Source: Bacteroidales bacterium (GTDB lineage Bacteria > Bacteroidota > Bacteroidia > Bacteroidales > UBA932). From it: a stretch of 64,000 nt of DNA. How positions within the stretch are numbered: the first letter of the stretch is position 1; every line of letters starts with the position of its first letter. The stretch spans positions 1 to 64,000 of the forward strand of contig JAFZQO010000053.1 of NCBI GenBank assembly GCA_017620335.1, written 5' to 3'. Positions 17,731 through 18,911 of the stretch are shown here, piece by piece. Made by a program: the position numbers and the translations under genes. The notes under the pieces were generated by a model, which was not told where the DNA came from, ran no database searches, and saw nothing but the letters and a program-made list of their open reading frames with translations.

Positions 17731-17747
17731 TCCCCACACCCCCGCAT

Positions 17748-17876
17748 CCTTCTACCTCAGGTCGAAGGATAACGCCATTTTCGGCAAAAACCCCCACTTC
17801 CTTCTACCTCAGGTCGAAGGATAACGCCATTTTCGGCAAAAACCCCCACTTCCTTCTACCGCAGGTCGAAGGATGA
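17748..17876. repeat. Tandem 52-nt repeat, 2.5 copies
   Basis: Two full copies (17748-17799, 17800-17851) and a partial third (17852-17876) are nearly identical, with a period of exactly 52 bases. Each begins with an imperfect inverted repeat, CCTTCTACC followed by GGTCGAAGG. Spacer sequence (CGCCATTTTCGGC, then AAAAACCCCCAC) comes next. The third copy has small changes (ACCGCAGG, GGATGACG) and runs into the beginning of the radical SAM reading frame. It is not a CRISPR array because the spacers are identical. Confidence 0.9.
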
Positions 17877-17938
17877 CGAAAAAAAAGGGGGTTCATGCAG
17901 TATTTGAGACAGAAGGACGTTATTTAGTCGTGCAAGAG

Positions 17939-18619
17939 ATGATCAAGGCAGATATCTCGGCGGTTTCAAGGCTGAGGATAGTCGTAGACGGAGAGGGTGT
18001 CACCACCCTCACAGCCTTCATGTCATGCCCGCTCAGATGCCGCTACTGCCTTAATCCACAGACGCTTACACCGGAAGGACCCCACAGGGTCATGACTCCG
18101 GAGGAACTGTACGCCGAGGTAAGGAAGGACGAACTGTACTTCCTGGCGACGGGAGGGGGCGTGACCTTCGGCGGGGGCGAGCCGCTGCTGAGGCCGGATT
18201 TCATCCGGGCTTTCCGCAGCCTCTGCGGCCCCGCCTGGAAGCTCAACGCCGAAACCTCCCTCAACGTCCCGGAGGACGATGTCAAGGCCCTGATGCCGGT
18301 CATAGACCACTGGTTCATCGACATCAAGGACATGGACGGGGAGATATACCGGAGTTACACCGGGCGGGACAACGCCCGGGTCCGGGGCAACCTGCGGTTG
18401 CTCGCGGACGCGGGCCTCGCCGCCCGCTGCACCCTCCGCATCCCACACATCCCCGGGTACAACACCGACGCGAACCGGGACAGGAGCGTGAAAGAACTGG
18501 AAGCCATGGGCTTCAGCGTTTTTGACAGATTTGAATATAAAACGAGGATAAATGGAAAGAGGAAAGGAGATATGCCGGATTCTCAAGGAGATAAGAAGGC
18601 AGATAGCCAAGGCCAATGA
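17939..18619 (+). CDS. Radical SAM enzyme of the glycyl-radical-activase/peptide-maturase class
   Basis: This protein of about 226 residues has the cluster motif CPLRCRYC (Cys30, Cys34, Cys37), FGGGEPLL for SAM binding and WFIDIKDMDGEIY. The overall order resembles pyruvate formate-lyase activating enzymes. No glycyl-radical enzyme gene is nearby. Instead the gene overlaps by 68 bases the gene for a Cys-rich small protein, which suggests a peptide or protein substrate. The start is uncertain: an upstream in-frame ATG at 17873 would add 22 residues but begins within the tandem repeat. The C-terminal tail is basic and hydrophilic. Confidence 0.8.
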   Translation: MIKADISAVSRLRIVVDGEGVTTLTAFMSCPLRCRYCLNPQTLTPEGPHRVMTPEELYAEVRKDELYFLATGGGVTFGGGEPLLRPDFIRAFRSLCGPAWKLNAETSLNVPEDDVKALMPVIDHWFIDIKDMDGEIYRSYTGRDNARVRGNLRLLADAGLAARCTLRIPHIPGYNTDANRDRSVKELEAMGFSVFDRFEYKTRINGKRKGDMPDSQGDKKADSQGQ

Positions 18620-18911
18620 CATAGAGTTCGTCACTGCCGAATGCAAGCACAAGGGCGACTGCGCCGGCACCTGCCCGAAATGCGAGTCCGAGGTGGCATA
18701 CCTCGAGAAAGAGCTGGCGCGGCGCCGGAGGCTCGGCCTCACGACCCGCGTAGCGGGCCTGGCCCTCGGCCTCGCCGCCATCGCGCCCGCCACACTTGTA
18801 ACCTCCTGCACCAAGGGAGACATCGAGGAACCGGAAGAGGAACAGCTTCAGGGTGACCCGGCCCCTTCAAACTGGATGGGTATAGTAGGCCCGCCTAACG
18901 AGGATAATTGA
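18552..18911 (+). CDS. Cys-rich small protein with internal lipobox, possible radical SAM substrate
   Basis: This 119-residue protein has three parts. Residues 1-60 are hydrophilic, with the start MERGKEICRILKEIRRQIA and a C-x5-C-x3-C-x2-C cluster (Cys31, 37, 41, 44). Residues 57-86 resemble a lipoprotein signal peptide: basic RRRR, a hydrophobic core VAGLALGLAAIAPATLV and a lipobox VTSC (Cys86). Residues 86-119 are an acidic, Pro-rich tail. A signal peptide this far from the start is unusual. The layout of leader, cleavage signal and short product, together with the overlapping radical SAM gene, suggests a ribosomally made modified lipopeptide. This is inference. I recall similar Bacteroidales proteins of unknown function. 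Confidence 0.7.
   Translation: MERGKEICRILKEIRRQIAKANDIEFVTAECKHKGDCAGTCPKCESEVAYLEKELARRRRLGLTTRVAGLALGLAAIAPATLVTSCTKGDIEEPEEEQLQGDPAPSNWMGIVGPPNEDN

Follow-up and report, generated by a model that had tools for sequence, protein, structure and literature searches.

The window analysed here is a stretch of 64,000 nucleotides (positions 1 to 64,000 of contig JAFZQO010000053.1, assembly GCA_017620335.1) from a Bacteroidales bacterium, and two overlapping genes on its forward strand are the subject of this study. The first gene, at 17939..18619, encodes a 226-residue radical SAM protein resembling the pyruvate formate-lyase activases (PFL-AE). The second, at 18552..18911, encodes a 119-residue protein with a Cys domain, an internal lipoprotein signal and an acidic tail, which we propose to be the substrate of the enzyme. 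The two genes share 68 bases (18552..18619), ending with the stop codon of the radical SAM gene at 18619. An overlap of this size with a PflA-like radical SAM gene had been reported in the initial annotation, and according to the coordinates it is identical in the two closest relatives, loci L036 and L037. The radical SAM frame is readable from 17873. However, the ATG at 17873 lies inside a tandem repeat that both of these relatives lack, and their start codons align with the ATG at 17939, so we consider 17939 the probable start of the gene on the basis of this alignment. The repeat, which has a 52-base unit in 2.7 copies (17738-17878), separates the radical SAM gene from an upstream gene named by eye as sugar-epimerase-like; its 30-base core occurs twice, at this spot alone within the window (up to three mismatches). 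The source genome (2.76 Mb, 54 contigs, 96.6% complete) matches the small protein once and the enzyme once in full, and has an additional weak radical SAM match on another contig (1e-6, 29% identity).

The window enzyme matches PF04055 (1e-19) and carries the CX3CX2C cluster-binding motif as CPLRCRYC (18026..18049). Its best NCBIfam model is TIGR02494, with a score of 125.8 bits against a cut-off of 174.35, and TIGR02493 gave 94.7 bits against a cut-off of 231.75; none of its 25 best scores reached a curated NCBIfam cut-off. An alignment of 47 enzymes, taken from 75 distinct frames, was used to build the enzyme profile A3. All 47 match models of glycyl-radical enzyme (GRE) activases, the best TIGR02494 E-value of any member being 1.1e-43, and the closest solved structures are PFL activases (3c8f, 3.4e-27, profile positions 15-201 of 206). 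The similarity to PFL-AE extends over nearly the whole enzyme and includes the D-G-x-G stretch with Asp16, Asn38, GGE and D-x-K. In the window enzyme the first of these is D-G-E-G (17987..17998), whose Asp aligns with Asp16 and whose D, G and G are invariant in all 47 sequences, as is the Asn aligned with Asn38 (18053..18055). Asp16 and Asn38 of PFL-AE bind the target glycine Gly734 according to excerpts of a modelling study (PMC9326890). The retention of the two residues could also reflect inheritance without function. In contrast to PFL-AE, where the cluster is followed by CHN, these enzymes have CLN or CIN at this position. They also form a branch of their own: in the tree, 50 enzymes including the fused forms described below were separated by one fork (support 93/100) from six other activase-like proteins. 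The aligned enzymes are mostly 202-213 residues long and end near the end of the barrel as aligned to PFL-AE. Their only invariant cysteines are the three of CX3CX2C; two other cysteines are found in 35/47 and 20/47 sequences, and no SPASM-type auxiliary-cluster cysteines in a C-terminal domain were found among the 47. A looser search of the family-level sample (1e-20) added three genomes (G033, G044 and G051), whose matches group apart from the enzyme branch and have scores like those of GRE activases. Next to an intact substrate gene at L039 and at L079, the frame of the enzyme is split in two; both loci were searched in this state.

An activase of this lineage would be expected to have a GRE as its partner, and a scan with the Gly_radical model (PF01228) was performed on 17 enzyme-bearing genomes. 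A radical SAM gene adjoining a GRE in relatives had been named beforehand as evidence against the proposed system, but no match adjoined the enzyme in any of these genomes, in agreement with the earlier observation that no GRE lies near the pair in the window. PF01228 was absent from six of the 17 genomes, including the source genome, which gave 0 matches. The other 11 contained 14 matches, nine of them weak (E 5e-6 or worse), and the sole match sharing a contig with the enzyme, in genome G034, is about 155 kb away from it. At two of four GRE loci examined, another activase-like gene stands alongside the GRE. Based on these scans, the sub-cut-off scores and the presence of other activase-like genes at two of the four GRE loci, we rejected the assignment of the enzyme as a GRE activase.

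The small protein has the anatomy that had been read from its sequence, with a Cys cluster (C31-x5-C37-x3-C41-x2-C44), RRRR at residues 57-60, a hydrophobic core, the lipobox V83-T-S-C86 and an acidic tail of 34 residues all present. The N-terminal Cys domain spans residues 1-62 (18552..18737) and is the proposed docking leader; the internal signal runs from RRRR to the lipobox (18720..18809, with the lipobox Cys at 18807-18809), and the tail, residues 86-119 (18807..18908), is predicted to be exported. Alignment of 82 intact members (A5: the window protein, the protein of L005 and 80 of 109 non-redundant proteins) revealed a fifth conserved cysteine, C8, beyond the four described initially. 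All five are invariant, and the full set of invariant positions is G4, C8, L11, K12, R15, N22, I24, C31, G35, C37, G39, T40, C41, C44 and E47. The fused forms at L022-L024 (in which the five cysteines are present), the cut-off L116 protein and a copy at L026 without the Cys cluster were left out of A5; the L026 copy (116-628, or 134-628 in the form left out) has lost the cluster and has a TonB_C-like tail. No Pfam or NCBIfam model covers the N-terminal 62 or so residues of any of the 82 members. At 1e-3 they match five Pfam families, none of them PqqD-like, and a search of the PDB with a profile of three small proteins returned a single, non-significant match, RnfB (E 0.32).

Behind the conserved Cys domain, a hydrophobic stretch is found in 103 of 110 non-redundant members. 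By sequence pattern, with no dedicated predictor involved, a lipobox-like site was assigned to 77 of the 110 and a signal-peptidase-I-like site to 20; of the 13 without either, six are stand-alone, fused or cut-off Cys domains. The tails that follow are of unrelated types and include short acidic tails, TonB_C domains (30/82) and carboxypeptidase-regulatory-like domains (8/82). The order of the domains supports the earlier suggestion that the Cys-rich part is placed as a leader before the internal signal. The companion suggestion, that the tail becomes a lipopeptide, suits the shortest members and fails as a general description, since 71 of 109 non-redundant proteins exceed 180 residues, 30/82 contain TonB_C and one tail, at L063, is more than 500 residues long.

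The two genes occur together. In a family-level sample, the small protein was detected in 3/149 genomes, with the enzyme as its neighbour in all three. Across 393 genomes of the order, the Cys domain (profile of three small proteins) was found in 15, the source genome included, and the enzyme (profile of 47, cut-off 1e-45) in the same 15 with one match each, a co-occurrence with a Fisher's exact test value of 2e-27 that ignores kinship and in which part of the enzyme profile came from genes next to the small protein, some in these same 15 genomes, and the cut-off was chosen by us. Each enzyme is accompanied by one to four Cys-domain proteins in these genomes. A search of a wider genome collection yielded 278 matching stretches and 210 confirmed relatives, of which the best 80 were analysed; these are from metagenome-assembled genomes titled Bacteroidales, Prevotella, Muribaculaceae and alike, plus Clostridia, many of them from rumen or gut. 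Among these best 80 of 210, the enzyme lies within the locus in 53, the nearest pair always being on the same strand, and in 48 of the 53 this pair overlaps or is separated by no more than 13 bases when measured on stop-to-stop frames, which overstate overlap. At least two substrate copies occur at 18 of the 80 loci, in a row at some of them.

The remaining 27 of the 80 loci, from 19 genomes, have no enzyme in the stretch examined. A small protein occurring without the enzyme had been named beforehand as evidence against a joint system; such cases are confined to two of the 19 genomes, G540 and G541, in which substrates were found and the enzyme was not (metagenome-assembled genomes, completeness not given). 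In the other 17 the enzyme is encoded elsewhere, once in 16 genomes and twice in G554, which indicates that several substrates can share a single enzyme, even in trans. The presence of both components in the same 15 of 393 genomes bears out the view that the two genes form one system, and the pair in the window is one locus of a large, real and so far unnamed two-part system.

In Segatella copri HDE06, a human isolate, the system is carried by a 93-kb plasmid (NZ_CP137558.1, L180), where two Cys-domain proteins annotated as 'energy transducer TonB' lie beside a 'radical SAM protein'; transposase, integrase and relaxase genes are found near this locus. Two human faecal contigs that lack annotation and are filed as phage carry it too, and the 152 pattern matches in viral contigs included one relative (L116, cut off by the contig end). 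Four of the loci assigned to Clostridia are flanked by Era-RecO-MutS2 (L094), FliB (L110), DegV (L078) and MgtE (L115), genes that point to Clostridia, so that simple mis-binning of these four loci is less likely.

Several rearranged forms are informative about how the parts relate. In three genomes of one genus (L022-L024), enzyme and Cys domain form a single protein, with the Cys domain at the C-terminal end and all five cysteines kept, and the next gene encodes a signal-less peptide of 71, 76 or 74 residues with [ET]G[IL][IL] repeats and an L[IV]GDI site. The tail-less Cys protein of G034 is accompanied by an enzyme that has LMGDL at its own C-terminus. Fused and split forms of this kind are as expected if the Cys domain and the glycine motif both have to come together with the enzyme. 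A poor fit is G380 (L021), where the enzyme and a lone Cys protein have no small motif peptide beside them and, over the 13 kb read, single motif matches occur solely in a few larger frames. The stretch of this genome with the lone Cys domain and the enzyme (L118) also encodes a MobC-like protein and a 1250-residue protein (names given by eye).

A short glycine motif recurs across the tail types. It gives the best indication of what the enzyme targets, and the initial annotation did not mention it. The motif [LMAVIFQ].?G[DE][VIP] is present in 95 of 114 non-redundant tails, whereas over 200 shuffles the number averaged 24 and never exceeded 37; these tails were drawn from 150 proteins, of which 143 combined the Cys pattern with a tail of 20 residues or more, before removal of similar sequences brought the set to 114. 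The stricter form [LMVIFAQ].G[DE][VIP] was found in 78 of 109 non-redundant proteins, a set that leaves out loci L001-L009 and proteins of more than 500 residues, and is spread over all types of tail (TonB-like 33/48, other long 17/23, short 28/38). It is absent in 31, five of which are fused, stand-alone or cut-off Cys domains. In a set of 110 proteins obtained with slightly different filters, the strict motif occurs 118 times after residue 62 and never before it. L-x-G-D-[VIP] was counted 67 times in the 18,111 residues after the Cys domain of 112 proteins (3.70 per 1000 residues) versus 18 times in 226,770 residues of 673 other reading frames at the same loci (0.08 per 1000); 82 other lipoprotein-like frames at these loci (27,501 residues) contained six. 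A comparison of TonB_C proteins within the same genomes (81 matches yielding 30 loci, 28 of them readable; L146 and L162 gave no frame) revealed the strict motif in 4/5 proteins with the Cys domain versus 3/23 without it (Fisher 0.008). Since the pattern was devised after inspecting the tails, which are partly related to each other, these enrichments describe a concentration of the motif and are not independent tests.

Around the glycine, L is preferred at -2, D/E at +1 and V/I/P at +2, the last two preferences being part of the pattern, and looser sites such as MGIV, RGKV and EGLI keep the glycine constant. The window protein has two sites, L-Q-G-D-P (Gly101, 18846..18860) and M-G-I-V (Gly110, 18876..18887); the latter is M-G-I-V in L036 and M-G-F-V in L037. 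K-G-D-I (18813..18824), kept in both relatives, is a possible further site. The motif probably marks what the enzyme alters. A meaning as a lipoprotein export signal was set aside because the motif is also seen at a long distance from the lipid Cys, in tails with a signal-peptidase-I-like site and in the signal-less peptides. Four carboxypeptidase-regulatory-like tails (L026, L077, L099 and L181) end with LLGDVVFVG, LMGEVVVVG, LMGEVIVG and ILGEVIAG, respectively, resembling LxEVVVVG, a stretch familiar from SusC proteins. Compared with that stretch, they seem from their sequences to have gained a glycine, as if the motif had been inserted into it.

We therefore favour, with some confidence, a model in which an activase-lineage enzyme acts on exported proteins before they leave the cytoplasm. 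The enzyme lineage, that of pyruvate formate-lyase activase, would have been re-purposed from activating GREs to maturing exported proteins. Judging from conservation, the Cys domain of the substrate would dock on the enzyme in the cytoplasm, and the enzyme would then abstract a hydrogen from the C-alpha of the glycine in L-x-G-[DE]-[VIP]-like motifs while the tail is still unexported, leaving a glycyl-derived modification on the tail. The internal signal is predicted to direct export subsequently, with signal peptidase II or I removing the Cys domain to release a modified lipoprotein or periplasmic protein. A glycyl radical exposed on a flexible tail would be short-lived, which calls for an additional step; the outcome is more plausibly a quenched product, a cross-link or a cut than a lasting radical.

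It is also conceivable, if rather unlikely, that the maturation system is as described and the modified residue is not glycine, the enzyme instead epimerising or cross-linking, for instance, the Asp/Glu, Val/Ile or Leu of the motif, or that the Cys domain serves as an auxiliary carrier of a metal cluster. The preferences of the motif at -2, +1 and +2 would suit a target other than glycine, but it is the glycine that stays constant among the looser sites, and the enzyme has kept the residues that hold the glycine in PFL-AE. A carrier role would be consistent with the five invariant cysteines of the Cys domain, which suffice for a cluster, and with an enzyme whose only invariant cysteines are the three of its SAM cluster.

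We consider it improbable that the Cys domain is itself the target or a redox partner of the enzyme, with the proteins staying in the inner membrane, the Cys domain in the cytoplasm as in TonB-like transducers, and the motif having another role in the envelope. Such an arrangement could accommodate TonB_C in 30/82 substrates and the lone, tail-less Cys domains of G034 and G380. However, by sequence pattern the hydrophobic stretch is followed by a cleavage-like site in most members (77/110 lipobox-like and 20/110 signal-peptidase-I-like), and the three fusion genomes keep a separate signal-less motif peptide.

The initial annotation, which proposed a modified-lipopeptide system, is partly supported by the results above. 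In the form of a secreted lipopeptide or a bacteriocin-like RiPP, we judge this proposal very unlikely, as 71/109 proteins exceed 180 residues and 30/82 carry TonB_C, and as no exporter or peptidase gene was evident next to the pair in those gene neighbourhoods that were inspected by eye, despite the short tails of the window's closest relatives, the substrate copies in a row at some loci and the copies on a plasmid and on two faecal contigs filed as phage. An ordinary GRE activase with its partner elsewhere, adjoining an unrelated lipoprotein, is scarcely credible even though GRE-activase models are the best matches of the enzymes, given the lack of PF01228 in the source genome and five further of 17 genomes, the other activase-like gene at 2/4 GRE loci, the 25 NCBIfam scores under cut-off and the co-occurrence with the Cys domain.

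The proposed modification of exported glycine-motif proteins can be placed beside three known systems. Apart from the sequence differences described above, the present enzyme differs from PFL-AE in having no PF01228 match beside it in the 17 genomes scanned and, as its partner, a Cys-domain protein with an export signal. The TIGR04134 (lipo_with_rSAM) system also pairs a radical SAM gene with lipoprotein genes in Bacteroidales. However, its lipoproteins have the signal near the N-terminus and no Cys domain, and its radical SAM protein is longer, at 359 residues, and SPASM-like by eye. The window protein gave no match to TIGR04134 up to E 1, and this model is absent from the 13 NCBIfam families matched by the 82 members at 1e-3; the two systems are separate. 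A TIGR04134 system with two lipoproteins and the 359-residue radical SAM protein is found on another contig of the source genome (C1:22737-23650, L174), so that radical SAM proteins are paired with lipoproteins in two different ways in this genome. Radical SAM RiPP pathways (sactipeptides, ranthipeptides and epipeptides) likewise combine a leader with a modified region and can use one enzyme for several precursors. Excerpts of a review describe SPASM-type auxiliary clusters in many RiPP maturases (PMC5682303). In the system described here, by contrast, the three cluster cysteines alone are invariant, a Cys domain followed by an export signal takes the place of the leader, and envelope proteins would make up many of the products. 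The domain order and the internal signals, as read from the sequences, fit a leader that is removed after modification.

TonB and lipoproteins are not mentioned in the sections of PMC10352776 consulted. A search of the open-access literature, a scope outside which most subscription papers fall, found no description of the system. To our knowledge, activases of the PFL lineage have been tied to GREs; one clade of activases now appears to be linked to lipoproteins and TonB-like proteins that carry a short glycine motif. The novelty lies in this tie between an activase-lineage enzyme and exported, motif-bearing proteins. More tentatively, C-alpha radicals or their products may be formed on glycines of exported envelope proteins outside any GRE, specified by a removable Cys tag and a five-residue motif, in a general system of gut and rumen Bacteroidota and Clostridia that possibly cuts or senses once the tail encounters oxygen. 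The system can be tested directly, being present on the plasmid of the human isolate S. copri HDE06, where one of the two Cys-domain proteins has a strict motif (ALGEV) and the other only looser sites such as LEGAI. If the proposal is true, it would add a protein modification to gut-bacterial envelope proteins whose present annotation is plain 'energy transducer TonB'.
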